IMG/VR virus record: IMGVR_UViG_3300013113_000260
Location: 1-32,313 of that record
Reading direction: 5' to 3' (one strand)
DNA: 32,313 nt
Source of the DNA: a virus
Below the pieces are notes generated by a model, which was given only the letters and a program-made list of their open reading frames with translations, ran no database searches and was not told the DNA's origin. Shown piece by piece: positions 2,931 through 31,735 of this stretch. The translations under genes and the position numbers were made by a program. The number at the start of each line of letters is the position of its first letter. Within the stretch, counting starts at the first letter, position 1.

Positions 2931-3632
2931 TTATTTTAGAGAACGAAGTCGAGCAACGACAGCCTTGGTGATTTCTTCGAGTTGCTCTTCAGTAGTCTCG
3001 TCAACTTCCTCAGTAGCTTCTTCCATCTTCTCTTCGTCGTCAGCCTTATAGCCTTCGTCTACCTCTTCTTCTTCTTCGTTCGTTGTGCAGTGCGCTTCTT
3101 CCAAAGCAGCGTCTTCGTCGATGACTGCCTGAACTGCCTGAGCGATTCTCTCAGCAAGTGAAGGAGTTGTTGTTTCCATCATCTCTTCTTCTGCTTCTTC
3201 TGCGTCCATTTCCATTTCTGGCTCTTCAGCAGGCATCTCAGCGTCCATCTCTGGAGCTTCTTCAGCAGGAGCTTCTTCTTCAGAATCAACACGCTCGGCA
3301 GGAACACCAGTCTCTGCTTCGATAGCAGCAAGAACTGCGTCTACAAGTGACTCGATTTTGTCCTGACCAACCTCTTCTTCAGCGGCAGGCTCTTCAGCGT
3401 CAAGCTCCATCTCTTCTTCTTCGACAACAACTTCTTCGTTAGTTGTCTCAGTTTCTTCAGTGGTGGTCTCTTCAGCAACTTCTTCAGTTGCCTCTTCCAT
3501 CTTTTCCTCTTCTTCTTTGTGCTCGCCTTCTGCCTGGATATCAAGCTTCTCTGAAATGCGATTAAGAGCAGGAATACCAGCGATTGCTGCAAACCTTGTA
3601 ATCTGTGCCTCTGTAAGCAAGTTCTTCTTCAT
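2931..3632 (-). CDS. Extremely acidic low-complexity protein (candidate core/scaffold-like)
   Basis: 233 aa, dominated by Glu, with Asp, Ala, Thr and Met. The N-terminus (MKKNLLTEAQITRFAAIAGI) is a short ordered segment. Two copies of EEKMEEATEEV lie near residues 42-53 and 201-212. Short amphipathic helices punctuate the acidic runs (IESLVDAVLAAIEAE, LAERIAQAVQAVID, LEEITKAVVARLRSL). A good ribosome site (AAGGAG) precedes the ATG. A terminator follows it, and a 78-base gap separates it from the upstream regulatory genes, so it may be a unit of its own. No enzymatic domain is visible. Acidic helical proteins serve as prohead core, internal or scaffold proteins in T4-like phages, and the N-terminus resembles a leader found on many marine-phage proteins. 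Both statements are recollection plus inference, not proof. Confidence 0.75.
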   Translation of the reverse strand: MKKNLLTEAQITRFAAIAGIPALNRISEKLDIQAEGEHKEEEEKMEEATEEVAEETTTEETETTNEEVVVEEEEMELDAEEPAAEEEVGQDKIESLVDAVLAAIEAETGVPAERVDSEEEAPAEEAPEMDAEMPAEEPEMEMDAEEAEEEMMETTTPSLAERIAQAVQAVIDEDAALEEAHCTTNEEEEEVDEGYKADDEEKMEEATEEVDETTEEQLEEITKAVVARLRSLK

Positions 3633-6266: not shown

Positions 6267-9200
6267 TTATGATAATAATTTAAAATTATGTTTCAGCGAC
6301 CTCGTTGAAAATCCCCACTGCTCGCTGTAGTCAAGTTTAGCCATATAAGGCTTGTTGAGTTCAACATGGTCGTACTCTCTAATGCCCCAACACTTTATAG
6401 TGTTGATAGTGGAAGTAGAATCGATGACACGAATCATCCAGTACTTTTTGTTGTTCTTGGTTTTTCTCTCAATGACCTCACGAGGAATAAACCAAGCAAC
6501 AGGAATCTCTGGATAGAAATCGCCAAGAGGTGGAATATTACTTTCCTCTAACTGGTTCCTGACGCTCTCCGACATAACAAGGTGAATTGGGAACATGCCA
6601 GTCAAACTAGTTTGATGTTCTATCATCTCCTGCTTGGTGAAACTTCCCTCTGGTGCGTAAAGCTCCATATTTTCGTGAAACTTCTTCTTCGTCTTTGCTC
6701 TATTCACAGCAACCGAAGACCAGAAGTGTTTTGTCCCAGTGAAACGCTCGTCCATAAGAGGCATCAGCGCTTCCGAGCGAACAAGGACATCAAGTGCCTT
6801 CTTGTTTAGTTTAGAATAGACAACCCTGTCGTGGAATAGAAAGTCTTCGATAGTGTTGAATGGTCGAAAGTTCAGTATCTGGTCTATTGCTGCATCTCCC
6901 AACCCCTTGATAGAGGAGAACGGCTGAATAAGGGCACCATCATCTCCAATCTCCCAGTTTCGGGTTGATAGGTTGATGTCAAGAGGGCGAATCTCGAAGC
7001 CCATCTTCTTAGCAGTGTTGATGGCTCGCTCTTTTCTAGACTCTGGTTCTTTATCCAAGAATGCAGCCATCCACTCAACTGGGTAGTAGTGAAGCAGCCA
7101 GGCACACTGGTAAGACAGAATAGAATAAGAAACTGCGTGAGACTTGTTGAAACCGTAGCCCGAGAAGAACTCAAATGTTTCCCACATCTTTCTCGCATCT
7201 CTCTCGGACATTCCCTTTTCAACACAACCAGCGACGAACTTCTGGAATATTCCGTCCTTGACTTCATGACCTTTTCCAGTGCCCTTCTTGGTGAGTAGCT
7301 TTCGAAGCAAGTTGCCCTCATCGAGAGAAATGTCCTTACCCAGCTTGTGAGCGAGAAGTGCTATCTGCTCCTGAAAGATAAGGAAGCCATAAGTCTCCTC
7401 TGTAATCTCTTTATGGACCTTGCTTACATAAGGTATGTTGCCTGGATTCTCTTTTGCGAAGACATAGTTCCTATCCACTTTGGCGGACAACGGTCCTGGT
7501 CTAAAGATAGAAGTAATAGCTGAGATATCAACGATACTTCTTGGCTTCGCCATCTGGCAGAAATTCTGAGCGCCAGTCTCCGTGAACTGGAACACACCAG
7601 CCCACTTACCTTTATGAAAAATATTCTCATACACTTCTTGGTCGTCAAAGTTGATAACATCGGGATGTAGTTTTTCCTGGTAATACTTCTTGATGTCTGC
7701 AAACGTCGGTTTTCTAACTCCGTGATGTCGAACCAAAATAGAGCGAATAGCATCCTCCATCATTCGAAGAGAAGCAAGCCCAAGAATATCAAACTTAATA
7801 AAACCCATCGGTTCCAAGTGTCTTACATTCTGTCCCTCGCTCCAAGGTGTCTGACGAACACCACCTGACGTAATAAGCGGCATCTGTTTGTGTAGGTCGT
7901 CTGCAATCACCACACCGCCAGCATGACGAGAAGAAGAGCGGACTTGACCGTAAAGAGCCTCGACATGAGTCTTTACGTGAGGATACTGCTGCAAGAACTT
8001 CTGCAAAGTATCTGAGAACTCCATTACCTCTTCAAATGTCGGAGTATAAACACCAGCGGAAATACCATGTTTTGCCTTAGCCTTTGGCGTAGCCTCGATA
8101 AGCATTCTACCAGTTACGTTATTCACCTCGTTGAATGGAATCTGATAGAACTTGGAAATGTCCTTGATAAGAGAACGCAACTGCAAGGTGTTCCAGTTTG
8201 TAATAGGAACAACAGTGTTCTCACCCCATTCCTCAACCAACTTTTCTTTGAGTTCCATTGGCGAACTTACGTCATAGTCAATGTCTGGATAGTCAGTTGC
8301 ATCTGCTCGCAAGAAACGAGAAAAGAGAAGACCGTATTTAATTGGGTCAACCTGAGTGATTCCTAGAACATAAGCAACGAGTGAGCCTGCTGCTGAACCT
8401 CGACCTGGACCTGTAAGTTGTTCTTGTGTCGCTCTGTCCGCAATAGCTTTCATTGTTAGAAAGTACTTTGAGAAACCTCTGTCAGCAATGACGTTTAGCT
8501 CTAGTTTCAGCCTCTCAACATAATCTTTCTTCTTGGCTAGCTTGAAGTTTCTCAGACCCTCGATAGAAGCTGCGACAAGTGCCTCGTCTGCTGTCTTGCC
8601 TGGTGGAACTACAAAGTCAGGAAGTCGAACCTCATCATTAGGGTAGAACTTCTCTATCATTTCATGAGCGATTTTGTGAGTCACAACAATGCTCTGCTTT
8701 ACAAGCTCGTCGTCATACTCAACGCCTGCTTCTGCTGAATACTTCTTATAACTTTCCCACATCTGGTCGCCGTTCTTTGGGTAAAGTTCATAACCGACCT
8801 CCTCAACGTCAATAGGAAGTTCGGTATCCATTTCTTTACCCTTGCCGAGCCAGCCTAGCTTCTTGTAGAGAATCCTGTCTTTCCAAGCATCGGCTGTGGG
8901 ATAGTGGCTGTCCGCAGTAGAAACAAGTGTTAGGTCAAACTCCTTCGCAACCTGAATAACATATTGGTTTAGCTCGTGCTGCTCTGGAATGTTGTTCCAC
9001 TGAAGCTCTGCTAAAAACCTGTCTTTGCCGAGAATAGAAGTCATTCTTCTAGCCGTCTCTCGCATGGCATCTAGAACTGCTTCTGGACCCTCTTCCTTGT
9101 TTCTCCACATGTCTCCAGCAAAAACACCGCCGAGACAAGCAGTTGAGACAATAATGCCTTCAGAGTGCTTTTCTAGCATCTCATAGTCAATTCTTGGAAA

Positions 9201-9686
9201 GCGGTAGAAGTTGTCGCCTTGGAAAGAACTAGAGATAAGTTGAAAGATGTTTTCTAGACCCTTCTGGTTTTGGGCGAGAATAACAAGGTGATGTCGCCTA
9301 TTGACGATAGACTTGTAGGTTCTTACTTCTGTCTCGACAACAGCACCTGAAGTGTTCGTGTCCTTTAGGGCAGCAGCATTCTTCTTATTCTGCTTTGCCA
9401 CTTCCATATCTTCTTTCCATTGCCTGATGGAAGGGTGAAAGTAAGCCTCGACGCCATAAATGGGTTTGAAATTTTTGCCTGCCTTTTGCATTTTCTTTGC
9501 GTGAAGGACCATTTCAGCGAGAGAGTTCTGATTTCCATGGTCCGTGATAGCAAATGCGTCAAGACCATTGGCGTGAGCCGAGTCCATGTGCTCAGACACA
9601 TAGCCGAGTGCGTCGAAAGGCGAACCTCCAACGGAGTGAGCGTGTAGTCCGACGAATGGGAGTGTTGATTCTAACCTGTCAGTCAT
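6267..9686 (-). CDS. dnaE: DNA polymerase III alpha subunit (family C, DnaE type) with intact PHP domain
   Basis: 1139 aa, full length for DnaE (E. coli 1160). The PHP domain is at about 11-262 with metal ligands H15 and H17 (HAHS), D49-H50 (TDHGN), E80 (GVEAY) and DSHY (259-262). The polymerase domain has GPGRGSAAGS (426-435), catalytic Asp468 and Asp470 in PDIDYD, SRHAGG (586-591) and Asp633 in KFDILGL, then GYGFNKSHAVSYS (843-855). A helix-hairpin-helix (IKGLGDAAI, about 926-934) and an OB-like segment follow near the C-terminus. E. coli DnaE has lost most PHP ligands; here they are kept, so the PHP domain could be a proofreading 3'-5' exonuclease, and no separate epsilon gene is visible. 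No intein. The stop of the upstream gene abuts the ATG (TAAATG). Most T4-like phages use a family B polymerase, so this is unusual. Confidence 0.95.
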   Translation of the reverse strand: MTDRLESTLPFVGLHAHSVGGSPFDALGYVSEHMDSAHANGLDAFAITDHGNQNSLAEMVLHAKKMQKAGKNFKPIYGVEAYFHPSIRQWKEDMEVAKQNKKNAAALKDTNTSGAVVETEVRTYKSIVNRRHHLVILAQNQKGLENIFQLISSSFQGDNFYRFPRIDYEMLEKHSEGIIVSTACLGGVFAGDMWRNKEEGPEAVLDAMRETARRMTSILGKDRFLAELQWNNIPEQHELNQYVIQVAKEFDLTLVSTADSHYPTADAWKDRILYKKLGWLGKGKEMDTELPIDVEEVGYELYPKNGDQMWESYKKYSAEAGVEYDDELVKQSIVVTHKIAHEMIEKFYPNDEVRLPDFVVPPGKTADEALVAASIEGLRNFKLAKKKDYVERLKLELNVIADRGFSKYFLTMKAIADRATQEQLTGPGRGSAAGSLVAYVLGITQVDPIKYGLLFSRFLRADATDYPDIDYDVSSPMELKEKLVEEWGENTVVPITNWNTLQLRSLIKDISKFYQIPFNEVNNVTGRMLIEATPKAKAKHGISAGVYTPTFEEVMEFSDTLQKFLQQYPHVKTHVEALYGQVRSSSRHAGGVVIADDLHKQMPLITSGGVRQTPWSEGQNVRHLEPMGFIKFDILGLASLRMMEDAIRSILVRHHGVRKPTFADIKKYYQEKLHPDVINFDDQEVYENIFHKGKWAGVFQFTETGAQNFCQMAKPRSIVDISAITSIFRPGPLSAKVDRNYVFAKENPGNIPYVSKVHKEITEETYGFLIFQEQIALLAHKLGKDISLDEGNLLRKLLTKKGTGKGHEVKDGIFQKFVAGCVEKGMSERDARKMWETFEFFSGYGFNKSHAVSYSILSYQCAWLLHYYPVEWMAAFLDKEPESRKERAINTAKKMGFEIRPLDINLSTRNWEIGDDGALIQPFSSIKGLGDAAIDQILNFRPFNTIEDFLFHDRVVYSKLNKKALDVLVRSEALMPLMDERFTGTKHFWSSVAVNRAKTKKKFHENMELYAPEGSFTKQEMIEHQTSLTGMFPIHLVMSESVRNQLEESNIPPLGDFYPEIPVAWFIPREVIERKTKNNKKYWMIRVIDSTSTINTIKCWGIREYDHVELNKPYMAKLDYSEQWGFSTRSLKHNFKLLS

Positions 9687-11525: not shown

Positions 11526-12265
11526 TAATGCCCCTGTCTATTCTCTCGGTAAGCAGCAATAGTGTATGGGAAGTGTTCTTCCATTAGGAGAAGCATAGCC
11601 TTAGCAACTTGCTGTATCTCGAACTGTGCTCCTTCGTGGTCCCGAAGGTCAATAAACTTCAGAGCATTCAGTAGAGAAGTTGAACCAAGATACTGAGTGT
11701 AAAGGTTCTGGGGAAGAATTCCTCTCGCCTGTTCCCTGCAAACACCATTATCAACAAGTTTATTAAACAAATCCAATGAACGACGGTGGTGCATAACAAC
11801 AGCATCACTAGCCAAGTTGGGCGAGACTGGCAGAGTAGTGTTCTTGAACTCGCTAAGGTTTGGATTTATCTCATCCAAATTACTTGCTTGCCTGTTTGTC
11901 TCGTGCTGAGTTCTAAATGTTTTTGGTTCATAGAACTGTGGAGCATTTTCTGGTCTAGTCATATCTCGATAACGATTACTCCATTCATTATAACTCCAAG
12001 TACGGTGCCTGTGGTGCTGGGAACGGATAAACAATGGTACGACGAACTTGAAAGTCAAAAAACAGTGCTCAAGGGTTGAGGTGTGTTTGTGCTTCACCAG
12101 ATAATTAATAAGTTTTTTATCTCGCTCGTCAAGCTCTTGTTTTTCCACCCCAAACGAAATTCTTGCCGAATTCACGACGGTTTTATCAGAACCTACTGCT
12201 TCAAGCAACTCTACACTTCCAATCTCATCTTCATAGATGTAGATTTTATTCCCTTCTCTTTGCAT
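11525..12265 (-). CDS. thyX: FAD-dependent thymidylate synthase ThyX
   Basis: 246 aa, normal length. The ThyX signature RHR-x7-S-x-R is met by RHRTWSYNEWSNRYR at residues 86-100. HTSTLEH (61-67) and the C-terminal block with ALKFIDLRDHEGAQFEI also fit the family. It converts dUMP to dTMP using methylenetetrahydrofolate, with FADH2 as the reductant, so no separate dihydrofolate reductase is needed. It receives dUMP from the phage dUTPase. The ATG follows the GroES-like stop directly (TAAATG) with GAGGG upstream. Its own stop overlaps the next ATG. Confidence 0.95.
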   Translation of the reverse strand: MQREGNKIYIYEDEIGSVELLEAVGSDKTVVNSARISFGVEKQELDERDKKLINYLVKHKHTSTLEHCFLTFKFVVPLFIRSQHHRHRTWSYNEWSNRYRDMTRPENAPQFYEPKTFRTQHETNRQASNLDEINPNLSEFKNTTLPVSPNLASDAVVMHHRRSLDLFNKLVDNGVCREQARGILPQNLYTQYLGSTSLLNALKFIDLRDHEGAQFEIQQVAKAMLLLMEEHFPYTIAAYRENRQGH

Positions 12266-12535
12266 TTATCCCTCTACATATCCTAAGACATAGTTCTCTG
12301 AAACAAGACTTACCTTGCGACCATTGATATCAACCTGTTGCAACATATTGGAAGGAAAGACGATATAACTTCCCTGCCTCCAAGTGGCATTACAGTCAGA
12401 CGCAACGGCGACAACTTTAGCAACTTCAAACTCTGCTTTGGGTTGAAAACCCTCGGGCAAGAGAACACCAGTCTGTTCTTCTTGCTCCGAAGTCTTCAGT
12501 TCCAATAAAATATTTCTATTGGTAGGTACGAACAT
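12266..12535 (-). CDS. groES: GroES-like co-chaperonin
   Basis: 89 aa, close to GroES (97). It starts FVPTNRNILLEL (GroES: I-R-P-L-H-D-R-V-I-V). A loop with TGVLLPEG corresponds to the mobile loop that binds GroEL (GroES: GGIVL), then come the strands EVAKVVAVAS and GSYIVFPSN and the final VSENYVLGYVEG, matching the M-S-E-S-D-I-L-A-I-V-E end of GroES. Phage co-chaperonins such as T4 gp31 replace host GroES for folding the major capsid protein. No GroEL is visible, so it presumably partners with the host chaperonin. Its start overlaps the upstream stop (TAATG). Confidence 0.8.
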   Translation of the reverse strand: MFVPTNRNILLELKTSEQEEQTGVLLPEGFQPKAEFEVAKVVAVASDCNATWRQGSYIVFPSNMLQQVDINGRKVSLVSENYVLGYVEG

Positions 12536-16704: not shown

Positions 16705-16733
16705 ATAATATCACGCTTGTCTCGGGTTGTCAA
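16705..16733 (-). promoter_or_regulatory. Sigma-70 promoter for dnaB-nrdJ
   Basis: TTGACA (16733-16728), a 17-base spacer and TATTAT (16710-16705) on the minus strand. The -35 box and spacer lie in the last codons of the 5' nuclease gene and the -10 begins at the base after its stop. It lies 28 bases before the helicase ATG. Confidence 0.8.
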
Positions 16734-17679
16734 CACATATTCTACGAAAAATGGCATAGAGGTCTGTAAAGTTAACTGTGCCGAAACCATCAAATATCAT
16801 CATCTTGTCAACCTCGGTCTTGTTGAAACCGAACTCGAAGTTGTTTATGGCATACTTTATCTTTTGTTTGCCCTGAATGGAGATAAGAGGAGAATAAAGT
16901 TGCATCATTTTATAGTTCTGCTCTATAATCCCCTGATTGTCAATGATACCCTCATGAACTTTCAACGGTTTCTCGACTTCCTCGCAGGCTGCCACAAGTT
17001 CTTGTAATGTATAGTCTTTATCTTCTGCGAGGAAAGGAAAGCGCCTTGCTAGAGTGCCCAAACCGACGCCTGGGACACCTGGAAGGTTGTCTGACTTATC
17101 TCCAGCGATTGCACGAGCAAGGGCGAAGTTTCTAGGGTGGATACCAAACTTTTCGATTACTCTCGGCTTGTTTATTGTTTCCTTTTGGATTGGGCGATGT
17201 ATAATCGTCTCGTCGTCGCACAGTTGAAAAAAATCTTTATCAGAAGAAACGATGACCTTTCCCCAACCTTGATACTTTGGGTCTTGAGCTACAAGGGATA
17301 CGATATCATCCGCTTCGACAGAATCTAGCATAAACTGCATAATAGGAAGCTCATTGAGATATTCCATTAGCCTGACCTGTTGCCAAATCTTATTATCTTT
17401 TTCTTGCGTCTCTGTGAGAACCCTATCCGTTCTATTCAGACGAAGAGGCTTTCTACCCTCTTTGTATGACTTCACAATGGTTCTTCTCTTCCTGGAACCA
17501 TCTGCACCGTCCCAGCAGATAACTATCTGGTCTGGCTGTATCTCCCTTGACAGCTTCTGAAGTGTCTTGAAGAACCCTTTCACCCCACCAATAGGAGCAC
17601 CGTTCGTCGAGATGCTCGGGTCCACAATATAGGAACGATAAAAGTTATTCGTTCCATCTACTATCATTACTTTCTTCAT
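16711..17679 (-). CDS. 5'-3' exonuclease / flap endonuclease (FEN family)
   Basis: 322 aa, similar in length to T4 RNase H and T5 D15 nuclease. The metal-binding acids are in place: Asp8 (VDGTN), Asp57 (CWDG), Glu122, Asp124 and Asp125 (VEADD), Asp147 and Asp149 (SSDKDF), and Asp194 and Asp197 (AGDKSDN). A helix-3-turn-helix DNA-binding loop follows (LPGVPGVGLGTL, 199-210), and Arg/Lys residues 63-66 fit the helical arch. It would remove RNA primers and flaps from the lagging strand, the job of the PolI N-terminal domain, and the small family A polymerase of this phage lacks that domain. The gene begins after a combined terminator/promoter at 17691-17741 and has GGAG before the ATG. Confidence 0.93.
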   Translation of the reverse strand: MKKVMIVDGTNNFYRSYIVDPSISTNGAPIGGVKGFFKTLQKLSREIQPDQIVICWDGADGSRKRRTIVKSYKEGRKPLRLNRTDRVLTETQEKDNKIWQQVRLMEYLNELPIMQFMLDSVEADDIVSLVAQDPKYQGWGKVIVSSDKDFFQLCDDETIIHRPIQKETINKPRVIEKFGIHPRNFALARAIAGDKSDNLPGVPGVGLGTLARRFPFLAEDKDYTLQELVAACEEVEKPLKVHEGIIDNQGIIEQNYKMMQLYSPLISIQGKQKIKYAINNFEFGFNKTEVDKMMIFDGFGTVNFTDLYAIFRRICVDNPRQA

Positions 17680-17690
17680 AAGTTCTCCAT

Positions 17691-17730
17691 AAAAAAACCC
17701 CTAGTTGACATTATAATATCAAACTAGGGG
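17691..17730 (-). terminator. Intrinsic terminator after recA/uvsX, overlapping a promoter
   Basis: The stem CCCCTAGTT/AACTAGGGG (17698-17706 with 17722-17730) is followed on the minus strand by seven T (17697-17691), about 30 bases after the RecA-like stop. The loop contains the -10 box of the next promoter. Confidence 0.85.
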
Positions 17731-17741
17731 CTTAGTGTCAA
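17713..17741 (-). promoter_or_regulatory. Sigma-70 promoter embedded in the recA terminator
   Basis: TTGACA (17741-17736), a 17-base spacer and TATTAT (17718-17713) on the minus strand; a TATAAT at 17715-17710 overlaps it. The spacer includes one stem arm of the terminator and the -10 lies in its loop. A transcript would start near 17706, so it carries only the second arm and cannot form the hairpin. It reads into the 5' nuclease gene. Confidence 0.8.
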
Positions 17742-17759: not shown

Positions 17760-18896
17760 TTACTCTTCTGTTGTTGTGTCCTCAACTACTTCCTCATCGT
17801 CATCATAGAAATCAGAAGCGCTGCCTTCACGGTTCTTGAACTTCATAATAACGTGTTCGTCCATGACAGAAAAGACACTCTTTCGGAAGGTTTCGTCTTC
17901 CAACTTATCCAGCCATTGCTTTCTCTGAAACTTCAGTTCAGTTCCATCATCGGCTACAAGAGTGTACCAGGCACCTGCGGTCTTTAGTCGCTCAGAACCC
18001 TTGATGGCATCGAGCCAGCTTTCCTCGTCCTGAACTCCGTAAAGACCAGCGCCCCAGAGAATCTGAAATTCACATCTTCGACCTGTCGTACCAAAGCGAG
18101 ACTTCTCAAGCTTGACTCGTGCAGTAGAACCAATGCGAAAGCCATTCTCATCAGTAATAAAGGTTGCCTTGCCCTTTGGCTTGGTCAGCCAAATACGAAG
18201 TGAATAAGCATACTGTGCTGCCTTGCCGCCTGGAGTTACATAAGGAGTAGTCATCGCCTCGGCAACATTACTCGTGATGTTTGTCTTTAGCTGATTCAAG
18301 ATAAGCAAAGTCGCATTTGCATTAGCAATGGGCTGGGTTATCTTTGCAAAACCCTTTGCAAGGATTCTAGGTTTGACCGCCATTGAAGACTGAGGGTTGA
18401 AGTCTCCCTCGATGTCTGAAATAGAAGGTGTGAGTGCTAATGAGTCCCAGATAAATAACCATTGATTATCAATACTCAATAAATCTTCAATAGTCTCCAG
18501 CACGAATTCCACAGACTCTGCCTGAACGTACATAAGACTTTCTAAATCACAACCTGCCCTCTCCAAGAATGAAGAATCAATGGCAGATTCTGAATCGAAA
18601 TAAACTACACTTATTCCCATCTTTTGAGCGTTAGCGGCGACACCTGCTGCAAGATAAGACTTGCCTGAACCTTCTAGACCTGCAATTTCCGAAAACTTTC
18701 CAACAGGAATACCAGCTAACTTGCCTGTAGCAATAATAGAATCCAGCCAGCGTGAGCCAGTTGAAATCCACTGCTTTACATCTGTTGGATTCTCTTCTTG
18801 GAGGTTATGAGCGACATCTCTGCCTGCTTTTTTATTAATCAACTTTCGGATGTCCGACATCGACATCTTTCCAGTTGCCTGCTTAGTTTTAGCCAT
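17760..18896 (-). CDS. uvsX: UvsX/RecA-like recombinase
   Basis: 378 aa. The core ATPase has Walker A GLEGSGKS (73-80), the segment YFDSESAID (99-107) with the conserved acidic pair, and Walker B LFIWDS (147-152). The L2 region reads LNQLKTNI, then TPGGKAAQYAYSLRIWL, matching the RecA/UvsX DNA-binding loop and the following GGKAL-type strand. The C-terminal 20 residues are strongly acidic (DDDEEVVEDTTTEE), as in RecA and UvsX, where the tail tunes filament formation. It would coat single-stranded DNA and drive strand exchange for recombination-dependent replication, together with the SSB encoded just upstream. A terminator separates it from ssb on one side and another ends it on the other. 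Confidence 0.92.
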   Translation of the reverse strand: MAKTKQATGKMSMSDIRKLINKKAGRDVAHNLQEENPTDVKQWISTGSRWLDSIIATGKLAGIPVGKFSEIAGLEGSGKSYLAAGVAANAQKMGISVVYFDSESAIDSSFLERAGCDLESLMYVQAESVEFVLETIEDLLSIDNQWLFIWDSLALTPSISDIEGDFNPQSSMAVKPRILAKGFAKITQPIANANATLLILNQLKTNITSNVAEAMTTPYVTPGGKAAQYAYSLRIWLTKPKGKATFITDENGFRIGSTARVKLEKSRFGTTGRRCEFQILWGAGLYGVQDEESWLDAIKGSERLKTAGAWYTLVADDGTELKFQRKQWLDKLEDETFRKSVFSVMDEHVIMKFKNREGSASDFYDDDEEVVEDTTTEE

Positions 18897-18920: not shown

Positions 18921-18944
18921 AAAGAAAAGGGGGCAAGTGCCCCC
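18921..18944 (-). terminator. Intrinsic terminator between ssb and uvsX
   Basis: A perfect GC stem GGGGGC/GCCCCC with a four-base loop (18929-18944) is followed on the minus strand by TTTTCTTT. It lies 10 bases after the SSB stop codon. No promoter with good boxes lies between it and uvsX, so uvsX probably depends on partial read-through, leaving ssb more abundant. Confidence 0.85.
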
Positions 18945-20338: not shown

Positions 20339-21194
20339 TATCCCCTCCTTCTGGGTAAGTCTGAATGTTCGAAGTCCAAGTTTCTACGAAGGCAAAACTG
20401 TTTTCATATTTTGTCGAGTGTATCTGATAAGACGCTCCTTGAAGGTCTTTCATCTTCTCCTTGACTTCTTTGTTTACCTTTTTCAAAACTTTATAGTCTT
20501 CTTCTAATACTTTGTCGTTTACAGCGTAATAATAACACCTATTGGTTTCGTTGTCAATAGGAAAAAAACTTTTTTCTGCACCTGTCTCGAAGTCTACCAT
20601 CCCTATTGTGTAAATCCTCGCTGACTCACTGTTCTCAATCTTGTTGTCAAGAACTGGTTTGGTTCTATTGAAAACATTTACCATATGATAAGTGTATCCA
20701 ATCAACTCGTTTATCTTCTCATAATAATTTGCTGCTGTCAAGTTGTTTTCTAAAATTTCTTCAGTGGATGGATTGCTTACCAAACACATCGAGCGCAAGA
20801 CACCTGACCTTGCATACTCTTGCAAAATCCTATAACAAACCTTGTCTTGCAAATAAGCAGTTCTTCCTAGAAGTTCGTGGTCTGGCTTGATATAAAGAAC
20901 ATCTACATCGAACTTACGCTTCAAAAACTTTAAAACCTGCAAAGAGGCACCTGAAATGTTTCCAGAGCCCGCCATAATAAACAAACACTCGCCTACATCA
21001 GGCATTTGCTCAACAAAACGGGTCATTCTTATTTGTTTTTTATCATATTCCTCGTGAGACGCTCTCTTTGTGATGCCGAGCGACTTAGAAGTCTTCTTTA
21101 GACCCTCGTCAATAGTAAAAACACTGTATTGAGGGTATTTCTCAAAGTATTTAGCGATTTTGCAACCTGCATTGCCTAAACCTACTACGTTCAT
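20331..21194 (-). CDS. Divergent FtsZ/tubulin-like protein
   Basis: 287 aa. It has the layout of an FtsZ/tubulin GTPase domain. There is an N-terminal strand and nucleotide loop NVVGLGNAGCKIAKYF (2-17; compare FtsZ VIGVGGGGGNAV), then a strand ending FTIDE. A strand and Gly-rich T4 loop follow at CLFIMAGSGNISGASL (70-85; FtsZ FITAGMGGGTGTGAA), then VDVLYIKPDHELLGRTAYLQ (97-116; FtsZ TVAVVTKPFxFEGxxRxxxA) and a strand ending LVSNPSTEEI (138-147; FtsZ IPNDKLL). The C-terminal half has a long helix and beta strands like the activation domain. The tubulin signature GGGTGTG is degenerate and no NxDFAD-type T7 loop is seen, so GTP hydrolysis and polymerisation are uncertain. Other Rossmann proteins remain possible. 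It overlaps the mini-PolA gene by four bases (ATGA). Confidence 0.65.
   Translation of the reverse strand: MNVVGLGNAGCKIAKYFEKYPQYSVFTIDEGLKKTSKSLGITKRASHEEYDKKQIRMTRFVEQMPDVGECLFIMAGSGNISGASLQVLKFLKRKFDVDVLYIKPDHELLGRTAYLQDKVCYRILQEYARSGVLRSMCLVSNPSTEEILENNLTAANYYEKINELIGYTYHMVNVFNRTKPVLDNKIENSESARIYTIGMVDFETGAEKSFFPIDNETNRCYYYAVNDKVLEEDYKVLKKVNKEVKEKMKDLQGASYQIHSTKYENSFAFVETWTSNIQTYPEGGDSE
20529..20557 (-). promoter_or_regulatory. Intragenic sigma-70 promoter upstream of the ssb cluster
   Basis: TTGACA (20557-20552), a 17-base spacer and TATTAT (20534-20529) on the minus strand, inside the FtsZ-like gene. It would produce a shorter transcript carrying the two small genes and ssb, ending at the terminator at 18921-18944. 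Confidence 0.65.
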
Positions 21195-22375
21195 TTCATT
21201 TTCCTCATTTCTCCGTAACTTTTGCCGATAGAAACACCAACTTTATACTTTCCAAGTGGTGTTTTGGAGAATTTATCAATCATTTCAGGCAAAAGTGCTT
21301 TATCTTCGTCTGACAAGTCCAATAGAACGCTGTCATGAACAAGAAAGCGTATCTCTGACTTCTTGCCCTCCAACATTTCCCATATACTGTAAGCACTGTT
21401 GAGAAAAATATCACTAGAAGTAGACTGAATAAGGTAGTTCAAGGCGGTTCTTTCTTCTGAGAGTATTGTTCTCCCCATTGGCGTCCTTATCTTCCCCTCT
21501 TCATAGTACTTCTCTACAAGCTTGTCCCTATTATAATAGGTTTCTGCTTTCTCGTCAAGTGCTTTCGGGTTATAAAGCCAAGAAAATATCTTTTCTTTTG
21601 CTTCGGGTCTTGTCATACCCTCGTCATAAATGTTTTCCATATTCCAAAGGTGCAAGTCCTCCTCTGGCTGCTTTGTTCCCGACAAACCAAGCAAAGTTCT
21701 TAGTTCCGCTGCGTTGTAGTCAAGTTCCACCAACCAGTCGTTCTTTGGCTTTACAATGTTGCGAAACTTCTTATCCAAAGTTAGGATAGGAAAACTCGCT
21801 TTAGAGGCGGTAAGACGCCCCGTTATCGTCCCGAACGGGTTATAACTTACACGTTGTAGGTTATTTCCCAAACGCTGCCTAAAGTGGCGTACTCGCTCTT
21901 CAGCAGCATAGCGGTTTAGAGCGGCTTTGTCAACAGAAAAATGCTGCTGAGCGATATTATTTACCATTCTAGAAACTTTTACCATAAAGTCGTGATTAGC
22001 TGGCTTTTGATAATTCTGGAACACCCAGTCTGTTATCTGAGTCTTTATGGAGTAATATTCCAAGAGGTGTCGAGTTGGTACCAAGTCGTAAAAACAATGT
22101 TCGTGAAGGGAAACTTTGGATAAAGCGAATGACCTGTAAAAAGCCAACATCTTTTTGTGAACTCTTTCAAAGTCTTCTTGCAAGTGCGAAGGGCAAACAT
22201 CTCCTAACTCCTTGCCCTCTACATATATCTTGGCATACTGAATATCCTCTTTATCTATAGAAGAAGATAAGCTCCAGGTATGTGTCAGGTCTTGAGGGAG
22301 TTCATCAAAGTGAAGTTCGCCTTCTGCGAAGACACCTATACACTCCTTCTTATCGTCGAGCGCTTGGAATAGCAT
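21191..22375 (-). CDS. Small family A DNA polymerase (polymerase domain only)
   Basis: 394 aa, compared with about 600 for a Klenow-like fragment and 928 for E. coli PolI. Motifs of the family A palm and fingers are intact: TGRLTAS (185-191), motif A LDYNAAELR (218-226, catalytic Asp219), motif B R256-x3-K260-x3-F264-x3-Y268, NYLIQSTSSD (313-322) and motif C LVHDSVL (345-351, catalytic Asp348). The first 175 residues are too short for a 3'-5' exonuclease domain and show no exonuclease acids; they may hold a reduced thumb. It would fill gaps or extend primers, perhaps after the phage 5' nuclease, while DnaE replicates. No frameshift or degraded motif suggests decay. The ATG lies 8 bases after the stop of the upstream virion gene, with AAGG before it. 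Confidence 0.88.
   Translation of the reverse strand: MLFQALDDKKECIGVFAEGELHFDELPQDLTHTWSLSSSIDKEDIQYAKIYVEGKELGDVCPSHLQEDFERVHKKMLAFYRSFALSKVSLHEHCFYDLVPTRHLLEYYSIKTQITDWVFQNYQKPANHDFMVKVSRMVNNIAQQHFSVDKAALNRYAAEERVRHFRQRLGNNLQRVSYNPFGTITGRLTASKASFPILTLDKKFRNIVKPKNDWLVELDYNAAELRTLLGLSGTKQPEEDLHLWNMENIYDEGMTRPEAKEKIFSWLYNPKALDEKAETYYNRDKLVEKYYEEGKIRTPMGRTILSEERTALNYLIQSTSSDIFLNSAYSIWEMLEGKKSEIRFLVHDSVLLDLSDEDKALLPEMIDKFSKTPLGKYKVGVSIGKSYGEMRKMK
21905..21933 (-). promoter_or_regulatory. Possible intragenic promoter in the polymerase gene
   Basis: TTGACA (21933-21928), a 17-base spacer and TATGCT (21910-21905) on the minus strand. The -10 is weaker than at the other sites and the spacer is GC-rich, so this is the least certain member of the set. 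It could serve the FtsZ-like gene. Confidence 0.3.
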
Positions 22376-27020: not shown

Positions 27021-29438
27021 TTATGCTAAACTTAGCTTCATGTCGTCATCAAGTGCCTCGACAACTGCTCTACCGAATTCTCTTCCGTTCATCTGAAGGA
27101 TAATTTCTCGCTTGCGACGTTCGCTGGTTCCCGAGGTATCAGGTGCGACAAAAGAAATCAATCGATTCACTGCGTTCGAGACTGAATCTGCTGCCTCTAT
27201 TGCTGCGAGTTTAGCTTGAATAGTTACCAGTCTATCTGCCTCGTCCAAAAGGTCGCCAAGGTTTCCTACATTATCTTCATCGAGGCTCTTAACAACTGTT
27301 ACAAACTGTTTCACTCCGTCTTCGCCAGTTAACTCTCTCATCCCAGATACAATATCATTAACCTGGTCTGCGATGCTATCAAAAGATAGATTGAGAAGAC
27401 CGAAAGAGGCAGATAAACCTCCGACTGCAAGGGACAGGATTCCTATTGCTGCTGCCGCAAGAACGGCTGCTGGGGTCATTGCAGCTATGATACCGACACC
27501 GATTGCGAAGCCTATTGCGAATATCAAAAATCCAGCGCCTGCGACGGCAACTGCTGCTCCAAAAGCAAGGAACGCTCCTGCTAAACCGAAAATAGACAGT
27601 ATTGCTTCGGGCATTACTGCGATGTTATCTATCACCACCTGCAAAAGCTCTGTGAATGAGCCAACAAGAAGCGAAAGACCTGCTGCTGCAATACCAATAC
27701 CTGCGCCGATGGCAAGAACCGCCAAGGCAACCTTGATAAGACCCATACCTAATGAGCCAAGAGACTTTCCAAGATTTCTCATGCCGCCGCCAGCGGATTT
27801 GCCTGATTTGTTTAGCTTTTCGTTTCCTTCAGCCGCTGCTTCAGCAGATTTGCCAAGAAGAAAGTTTTTTGCTGCTAAAATAATCTTTCTTCCAATACTC
27901 TCACCCTCTTGTGCGGAAACGAATCCAGTTACAATACTTGTCGCTTTTGCTGCCTTTCTGAATGCGTAAATTGCAGCAGCGCCACCAGCTAGCACTTGAA
28001 TCAGTCTTTGATTATTCTGAGCAAACTCGGCTGTAATTGATGCAGCCTTGGAAAGCGCATCAACTATAGGCATAACAGCAACAGCGAGCGCCTGACCTGC
28101 TGCTGTTAGTTTCTTCGTTGCACTGACTGCTGCCTCCTGCCTCTCTTGGACCTGCTCCGCAGTAAGTCCGAGCATCTCATGTTCTGCCGCCATTTTCTGA
28201 CTTTCACCACCGAACATCCTAGCTGCAACGGACATATCTGAAATGCCTGCGGCATTAGCAACAGCCATTCTCTCAAACTTAGACATTGACTCAAAAGACT
28301 TACCAGCCATTTGCAAAGAGTTCTGCAACATTGCAACTCTCTGTTCTTCCGTCTCAGCAGTCAAAAGAGCCATAGAGTCCAGGAAAGGACCACCGAGAAC
28401 TGAGTTTAGCTGACCTGCTGCATTTGCTGCACCCTCGAAAGTATCGAATTGCTGTGTAATGGAGAGAAGCTCTCCCATCTCTATTCCGAGCTTTTTAGAT
28501 TGGAGAGCCAGTCCCTTGAAGACCTTATCAGCGTTCTTACCGTATTGTGCTATTTTCGGACCAGCAGCGGCGAACTCTTTAGCCATTTTAGCAGGTGCAA
28601 TACCAGCGTTCATAGCAAAAGTTCTCATGCTCAAAGCTTGTTCTGATGCCTGTTCTGCGGACAGACCCATTACCCTTGTGGTATAATCTACTTGAGAAGC
28701 AGTTTCGTCTGCACTGATTCCAAGCGAAGTTAGCTCTGCTGCTGTTGCGGAAAGTGAATTCTGAGTTTCTTGACTCAAGGAGGTGAATCCACTCATATTT
28801 GAGTGTAGTGCTTGCACTGCCTGTGCTGACTCTGCAAATCCTATACCGAGGGCTGCGTTGGAGTTTGCTACATCAGTAATGACTGCATCGAAAGAGCCGC
28901 CTGCGCCTGTAGCTGCTGCAAATTCTTGTCTCGCATTAGCAGCCATCAAGACGGTTCCAGCCATTGATTCCGTCACAGCGTCGAAGGCTGCACCAGTTAT
29001 GCGGTCGATGCTGAAATTCTTTTTGAATGCTTCGCCAAGCTCGCCTATAGAAACTTTTGATTCTGCGATTTTATCTAAAAGAGTGTTTTCGTATTTTGCA
29101 CCAATAGAGCCAACGAGGTCAAGGATGTCTTCTTGTAATTTTCTTTGTTCCTCAAGAGCAGCCGTGTTTGCTTTTATCTTGTCATTCTTCTTTTGAATGT
29201 TAGAAATCTGTTTTTCCCAAACAGCATTCTGAGACCTTAGTGCTTCATATTCTTCTTTTGTTAGGTCCGAAGACTGAAGCTTTGCTTTATTTATCTCTTG
29301 ATTTGCTTTGAGAATCTCTTCTTGAAGTTTTCTTCTTTCTTCTTCAGTAGAGTTGAGTTTGTCCTGAAATGATTGTTCTTTTTGCAGCAGAGCCAATCTT
29401 TCTTGCAACTGCTCAACGGTCTTGTTGTCTTCAGCCAT
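27021..29438 (-). CDS. Tape measure protein
   Basis: 805 aa, the largest tail gene. The N-terminal 115 residues are a coiled coil (Gln/Glu/Lys/Leu heptads). Residues 130-530 are Ala/Met/Ser-rich helices. Residues about 565-680 are long hydrophobic Ala/Gly/Ile/Leu segments that could cross a membrane. The end is charged (SERRKREIILQMNGREFGRAVVEAL), a form common at the end of tape measures. It fixes tail length and is thought to leave the tube at infection. At the usual 0.15 nm per residue, 805 residues imply a tail of roughly 120 nm. It follows the tube and gp26/gp51-like genes in the normal order. Confidence 0.9.
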   Translation of the reverse strand: MAEDNKTVEQLQERLALLQKEQSFQDKLNSTEEERRKLQEEILKANQEINKAKLQSSDLTKEEYEALRSQNAVWEKQISNIQKKNDKIKANTAALEEQRKLQEDILDLVGSIGAKYENTLLDKIAESKVSIGELGEAFKKNFSIDRITGAAFDAVTESMAGTVLMAANARQEFAAATGAGGSFDAVITDVANSNAALGIGFAESAQAVQALHSNMSGFTSLSQETQNSLSATAAELTSLGISADETASQVDYTTRVMGLSAEQASEQALSMRTFAMNAGIAPAKMAKEFAAAGPKIAQYGKNADKVFKGLALQSKKLGIEMGELLSITQQFDTFEGAANAAGQLNSVLGGPFLDSMALLTAETEEQRVAMLQNSLQMAGKSFESMSKFERMAVANAAGISDMSVAARMFGGESQKMAAEHEMLGLTAEQVQERQEAAVSATKKLTAAGQALAVAVMPIVDALSKAASITAEFAQNNQRLIQVLAGGAAAIYAFRKAAKATSIVTGFVSAQEGESIGRKIILAAKNFLLGKSAEAAAEGNEKLNKSGKSAGGGMRNLGKSLGSLGMGLIKVALAVLAIGAGIGIAAAGLSLLVGSFTELLQVVIDNIAVMPEAILSIFGLAGAFLAFGAAVAVAGAGFLIFAIGFAIGVGIIAAMTPAAVLAAAAIGILSLAVGGLSASFGLLNLSFDSIADQVNDIVSGMRELTGEDGVKQFVTVVKSLDEDNVGNLGDLLDEADRLVTIQAKLAAIEAADSVSNAVNRLISFVAPDTSGTSERRKREIILQMNGREFGRAVVEALDDDMKLSLA

Positions 29439-31667: not shown

Positions 31668-31702
31668 AATTTTAATCTCCTATAAAAAGTAATATTTGTA
31701 AT

Positions 31703-31735
31703 AACTAGGCTGGACCTTTATTATCCAGCCTAGTT
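31703..31735. terminator. Strong hairpin between sheath and tube genes
   Basis: A perfect 12-bp stem AACTAGGCTGGA/TCCAGCCTAGTT with a 9-base loop. The T-run (TTTTTATTTTATT) follows on the plus strand. On the minus strand, the coding direction, the stem is followed by ATTACAAATATTAC, a poor terminator tail. It may therefore stop antisense transcription, act as a leaky terminator, or protect the sheath message at its 3' end. Confidence 0.7.

Follow-up and report, generated by a model that had tools for sequence, protein, structure and literature searches.

Composite promoter-terminator motifs have reportedly been described in the T4-type phages RB49 and phi1 under the name of PeSLs (promoter-early stem-loops), and these are said to cluster in variable regions and to be sites of gene-swapping recombination. 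A second arrangement is found in phage T4, where hairpins at genes e, soc, 49 and I-TevI fold in the long early RNA and hide the ribosome site, and late-promoter RNA that does not carry the 5′ part of the structure gets translated, as shown for gene e (PMC3014915). Here, we have analyzed a joint between the recA and exonuclease genes of a phage, which, judged from its sequence, is predicted to act like a PeSL and like the gene e hairpin at once. It resembles PeSLs in that a strong sigma-70 promoter and a stem-loop terminator form one cassette between phage genes. It differs from the gene e type in having a host-type -35/-10 promoter and a T-run terminator instead of a late promoter and a translation block. 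AGGGG lies in its hairpin arm, and the GGAG of the exonuclease lies outside it.

The window, i.e., the whole stretch of DNA analyzed, is the 32,313-base virus record IMGVR_UViG_3300013113_000260. Besides the two genes that flank the joint, phrog or Pfam matches were obtained for an SSB, a DnaB-like helicase, a ribonucleotide reductase and DNA polymerase; two DNA polymerase proteins assigned to different polymerase families were noted, one at 6267-9686 (1139 aa, phrog_405) and the other at 21191-22375 (394 aa, phrog_17). A tail sheath match and a tail tube match, the latter slightly under the Pfam cut-off, indicate that the source is most likely an uncultured contractile-tailed phage. A nucleotide search of INPHARED with 3.9 kb around the joint returned no similar phage record, and the matches obtained for RecA and the exonuclease were distant only (<60% identity); an Rfam search of the window gave zero matches. 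A RecA stretch 74% identical to the window phage protein was observed in a WOR-3 bacterium MAG chromosome (CP070664.1, L341), where it represents either an integrated phage or a mis-binned contig.

The recA-exonuclease joint (Table 1) is probably, with a likelihood of roughly 0.8, a terminator with a promoter nested inside it, whose termination, initiation, transcription start and translation block are all predicted properties. A host-type sigma-70 polymerase arriving from recA would make RNA with both arms, which would act as an intrinsic terminator at the seven-T run. A polymerase starting from the nested promoter, at or just before the 3′ arm, would make RNA that has no 5′ arm, does not fold and runs into the exonuclease, helicase and ribonucleotide reductase genes. 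About 50 bases would thus end one unit and start the next, and both events could be set separately.

Table 1. Coordinates of the recA-exonuclease joint and its flanking genes in the window.
Feature	Position	Strand	Remarks
RecA/UvsX-like recombinase gene	17760..18896	minus	ORF and phrog_97 (E 2e-56); just upstream of the element
-35 box TTGACA	17736..17741	minus	18 nt past the recA stop codon (17760)
Terminator stem 5′ arm AAGCCCCTAGTT	17722..17733	minus	within the promoter spacer
-10 box TATTAT	17713..17718	minus	TGA before it (extended -10 type); in hairpin loop/upper stem
Predicted transcription start	17706	minus	inferred from the spacing rule only: 7th base past the -10 box
Terminator stem 3′ arm AACTAGGGGTTT	17695..17706	minus	contains Shine-Dalgarno-like AGGGG
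Seven-T run (terminator tract)	17691..17697	minus	in relatives also Shine-Dalgarno-to-start-codon spacer
Four-codon frame ATG GAG AAC TTA TGA, ATGGAGAACTTATGA	17676..17690	minus	7 nt past AGGGG; overlaps the exonuclease start (ATGA)
GGAG, likely exonuclease Shine-Dalgarno	17685..17688	minus	outside the hairpin
5′-3′ exonuclease gene	16711..17679	minus	PF02739 (E 1.5e-29) and phrog_107; presumed target of the nested promoter

An earlier note on this DNA had placed the -10 box between the arms of the recA terminator, with the -35 box just outside, and the minus-strand coordinates agree with this layout, the distance between the -35 box and the stem being 2 nt; the exonuclease start codon (17679) is 12 nt beyond the 17691-17741 span considered there. 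The promoter is an 11/12 match to the sigma-70 boxes with a 17-nt spacer, inside the 16-18 nt range, and the 12-bp stem with five G-C pairs is directly followed by the T-run, as in intrinsic terminators. It is highly unlikely, in our estimation, that the terminator alone matters and that TTGACA and an AT-rich loop resemble a promoter by chance, even though 11/12 matches are ordinary in this DNA (7 sites in 16 kb, several within genes) and two others of these 7 sites are TTGACA-17-TATTAT (16733 and 20557). The strict composite, i.e., promoter and hairpin together, was counted once in the window and 0 times in five window shuffles. What is above chance at the joint is the combination of promoter and hairpin, not the promoter match alone.

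Predicted folding separates the two classes of RNA. Read-through RNA (17737-17684) folds at -21.3 kcal/mol (z -4.9), compared with -9.0 ± 2.5 kcal/mol for 200 shuffles, none of which is equally stable, and RNA from the predicted +1 (17706) has no structure (0 kcal/mol).

To examine the same place in relatives, a recA set of 279 sequences was assembled from IMG/VR loci, one genome_contigs locus and the window; a RecA match was obtained for 262 of them and the stop could be read in 259, giving 167 clusters at 95% identity, and the 166 clusters with at least 80 nt downstream were used in the composite scan. The arrangement, which the earlier note had proposed to look for in related phages, does recur there: under the strict scan, a composite was found no more than 800 nt past recA in 54 of the 166 clusters, against 0-3 (mean 1.5) in 20 shuffle rounds and 6 on the opposite strand. 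The strict scan requires a T-run after the paired stretch and misses real sites such as L156 and L159, probably where some T of the run have been taken into the pairing, and 54/166 is therefore a low count. When sites were selected blind to hairpins, by promoters of at least 10/12 starting no more than 60 nt past the recA stop, 52 of 165 clusters had one, compared with 34 of 783 background windows, and arms pairing across the -10 box at -12 kcal/mol or better were present at 47 of these 52 sites. Their own arms had a mean of -20.3 kcal/mol vs -9.9 kcal/mol for swapped arms, and 0 of 20,000 permutations reached the own mean.

The stems of the 54 composites represent about 30 different sequences (by eye). 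No composite was detected within 800 nt in 112 of the 166 clusters. Some recA loci have a plain terminator and no promoter at the same place (L019-L025 and L027, which share one sequence, as well as L006, L007 and L026), others have neither at the joint, and the composite may lie further on where a small gene follows recA (L069, L071 and L285). The gene after the composite varies by cluster, being an exonuclease or, often, an HGAVL-motif protein, which may be deaminase-like; a Pfam search with one piece of an HGAVL protein gave zero matches. Among the close relatives of the window (seven sequences), both sides change in only 2 of 15 pairs (T-A in place of C-G at one, and G-C or G-T in place of A-T at the other), as they do in 32 of 500 shuffles. 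Since most pairs are invariant in the window lineage, covariation is weak there and the argument rests on the wider set.

Beyond recA, IMG/VR was scanned with a pattern of TTGACA, CCCCT, AGGGG and a T-run from which the -10 box was left out. At least 119 stretches were obtained, 80 of which were listed, and a -10 box of at least 5/6 at a spacer of 16-18 was present in 59 of the 80 matches listed, compared with 1-8 of 80 at control spacers. The matches listed contained 57 unique sequences, 40 with a -10 box; a GGAGG-arm pattern gave 98 stretches, and 46 unique sequences, 26 with a -10 box, among the 80 matches listed. With reversed polarity (AGGGG first, CCCCT last), the whole collection yielded only 23 stretches; 20 of these are unique, and 2 have a -10 box. 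Families were then formed by similarity of the downstream flank, excluding the composite itself; an earlier grouping with the composite inside the flank over-joined families (9/23 and 6/21 with a -10 box, 2/17 reversed) and was replaced. Family counts are far below raw counts, the 57 and 46 unique sequences among the matches listed falling into 27 and 31 families. A -10 box is present in 13 of 27 AGGGG families and 15 of 31 GGAGG families among the matches listed, vs 0-5 families at control spacers. By arm polarity, this amounts to 28 of 58 families with a G-rich 3′ arm (matches listed) vs 2 of 17 reversed ones. These spacing results, in raw and family counts, together with the excess of promoters near recA stops, argue against a chance fit of the promoter. 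The scan carriers include unrelated phages, such as Serratia phage BF and staphylococcal Twort-like phages. Given that the same layout is found in many phages with different hairpin sequences, the overlap would appear to be selected rather than accidental.

The geometry of the nested joint was measured in 54 composites of the recA set and 66 of the two pattern sets (the latter among the matches listed). In 120 of 120 (pattern-derived part: matches listed), a distance of 10 nt or more separates the end of the 5′ arm from the predicted +1 downstream of it, and the 3′ arm starts between -8 and +6 relative to this +1, so the 5′ arm would never be part of the promoter's own RNA. The view that upstream transcripts fold and promoter-started ones, having no 5′ arm, escape follows from this geometry and from the predicted folding contrast, and comparative support for the two classes comes from other phages, in which promoter and hairpin persist as a pair despite differences in stem sequence. 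According to the earlier note, a polymerase on the promoter might also hinder or aid termination.

The same measurements bear on an alternative in which a repressor would bind the inverted repeat over the -10 box as a DNA operator, the repeat not being an RNA hairpin. A palindrome over the -10 box is in the usual operator position, and the arms barely change in the window lineage; nevertheless, stems differ between phages and even among the six composites of a single phage (G020), and one protein could hardly read them all. In addition, the T-run is restricted to the 3′ side, with 6.2 T in 8 positions after the stem vs 3.4 A in 8 before it (120 composites, matches listed for the pattern-derived part), the 3′ arm is G-rich in 115 of the 120 (with the same scope), and G-U pairs occur in 101 of the 120 (likewise among matches listed), though the pairing program favors adding G-U. 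An operator is thus extremely unlikely.

With regard to the nested joint, two points go beyond the earlier note, namely how widespread the layout is and the Shine-Dalgarno role of the 3′ arm. Among the matches listed, a gene start 4-13 nt past the G-rich run is present for 38 of the 40 unique AGGGG composites with a -10 box (mode 7) and for 25 of the 26 GGAGG ones (mode 8), compared with 4 of 11 and 2 of 9 when the -10 box is 3/6 or less. At the family level (also among the matches listed), such a start is present in 26 of 28 families with a -10 box and 14 of 30 without, and plain terminators with the same stem have a gene start at that distance in 2 of 15. In the recA set, 21 of 54 composites have both a Shine-Dalgarno-like run in the arm and a start at the right distance, 30 have the run only, and 3 have no run. 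It would therefore seem that, outside the lineage of the window, the 3′ arm is often a Shine-Dalgarno sequence, with the T-run spacing it from the start codon. The ribosome site that the depositors annotated in Staphylococcus phage vB_SscM-1 (L636, 1723-1729) lies inside a composite. In these relatives, read-through RNA escaping termination would have its ribosome site shut in the stem, and leaked upstream RNA would be both terminated and hidden from ribosomes where the 3′ arm is the Shine-Dalgarno sequence. The window itself falls among the 30 of 54: AGGGG, seven T and ATG are present, but the frame has only four codons (a version differing by one codon is present in L001 and L003), and with the exonuclease having its own GGAG, the arm is at most a candidate ribosome site there.

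These data also raise the question of whether the hairpin acts chiefly by locking translation, in the manner of T4 gene e, hiding the Shine-Dalgarno sequence of read-through RNA while termination is weak or absent. In favor of such a lock are the 63 of 66 unique composites (matches listed) with a Shine-Dalgarno sequence in the 3′ arm and a start codon 5-12 nt away, the one-sided arm polarity, and the T4 precedent (PMC3014915). On the other hand, at loci not selected by a T-run pattern, the T share of Shine-Dalgarno spacers is 0.70 where a 5′ arm exists (43 starts) vs 0.26 where it does not (1,224), an enrichment that argues against a mere lock, and the exonuclease GGAG of the window is outside the hairpin. 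We consider a mere lock rather unlikely.

Strict composites were also counted in whole records. The window, G001, G003, G007, G011 and G013 have one each, at or just past recA, and the nearest 75-kb relative of the window has one copy. G005 has two, the weaker elsewhere; G012 has none under the strict rule, its recA site appearing nested by eye; and G004 has one weak match away from recA. Two composites each, most of them weak, were counted in G018, G021 and G022. In G020, an uncultured phage of 88 kb, six composites that differ in their stems share one strand over 20 kb (62-82 kb; L482 and L483; shuffles 0-1), an accumulation reminiscent of the variable regions reported for PeSLs. Serratia phage BF has five matches (shuffles 0-1), the one clear case being located at 12252-12304 in the BF_0026/BF_0027 gap, with the upstream stop codon within TTGACA. 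RB49 has two strict composites and T4 one (shuffles 0-1).

Both RB49 composites are nested and on the minus strand, at 3201 (gene 39/ORF005c) and about 112374 (alt/ORF183c). The first 50 kb of this phage also contain three sites of the tandem form that is typical for it (47769, 45360 and 34519), in which a 9-bp stem with a 4-nt loop is followed by a -10 box centered 52 nt on, and we infer that the RB49 sites measured correspond to the published PeSLs. The two forms of joint would hence coexist in a PeSL-bearing phage. Promoters with a near-palindromic 17-nt spacer (GGGG...CCCC) were additionally noted in RB49 (AY343333) at 115005-115033 and 121708-121736. PeSLs differ from the window element in that those measured in RB49 have the terminator and then the promoter in tandem, whereas the promoter of the window is nested inside the stem, and in that they reportedly occur in many copies per genome, compared with a single copy each for the window and G001, which are partial records. 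Because neither the tandem order nor the many copies were found, the window element is not filed as a PeSL and may be regarded as a variant of that kind.

In T4 (AF158101), a site at about 136335 on the minus strand between rnlA and alc has TTTACA-17-TATAGT, across which two arms pair, and its 3′ arm carries GAGG upstream of the alc start; the site differs in its short T-run and is known here from the scan alone. The Kayvirus vB_SauM-515A1 has a nested composite at 28046 (minus strand, phr/mbpU gap) with a 12/12 promoter and GGAGG in the 3′ arm. RNA-seq coverage steps combined with a sequence search led to a report of 58 early promoters and 42 terminators in this phage, and the available main text makes no mention of the 28046 site (PMC7698491). 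A literature search, from whose reach the main PeSL papers were outside, found no description of the nested form, and its absence from print is not claimed. A promoter hairpin like that used by the N4 virion polymerase was also considered for the joint and dropped, since the latter has ordinary -35/-10 boxes.

In vitro, E. coli polymerase is reported to remain bound to DNA once intrinsic termination has occurred and to be capable of a new start at promoters in the vicinity, including those located upstream (PMC6978380; PMC11347151). With the promoter only about 20-50 bp behind the stop, it is possible, if doubtful, that the polymerase remains on the DNA at such joints and restarts on the promoter it has just crossed, which would add to the nested-joint explanation; this support is in vitro, not in vivo. 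Equally tentative is the broader proposal that a widespread and repeatedly evolved form of punctuation may exist in compact phage genomes, in which a single stretch the size of a hairpin combines terminator, promoter and ribosome site and the stopped polymerase restarts there. If so, upstream transcription would feed downstream initiation, each messenger would receive a new 5′ end, and the silencing of read-through RNA would be twofold. Neighboring phage operons could be separated in about 60 bases with zero extra DNA. The resulting rule (-10 box in the hairpin loop, Shine-Dalgarno sequence in the 3′ arm, T-run as spacer) could be used by gene and operon callers, considering that terminator finders for short loops and promoter finders blind to hairpins may each let half of the element escape. 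Cultured carriers (Serratia phage BF, RB49 and staphylococcal phages) make the idea testable, including polymerase recycling in vivo.

Two further hairpins were observed in the window. One is located at 18929-18944 on the minus strand in the SSB/recA gap and consists of GGGGGC, a loop and GCCCCC with a T-rich tail. The other, at 31700-31731 in the gap between the sheath-like and tube-like genes, is a strong 12-bp hairpin with a T-rich tail on the plus strand; a weak promoter match around it (31696, plus strand, TTGTAA, 9/12) was set aside and the hairpin was classed as an ordinary terminator. The outer stem AACTAG is common to this hairpin and the recA joint.
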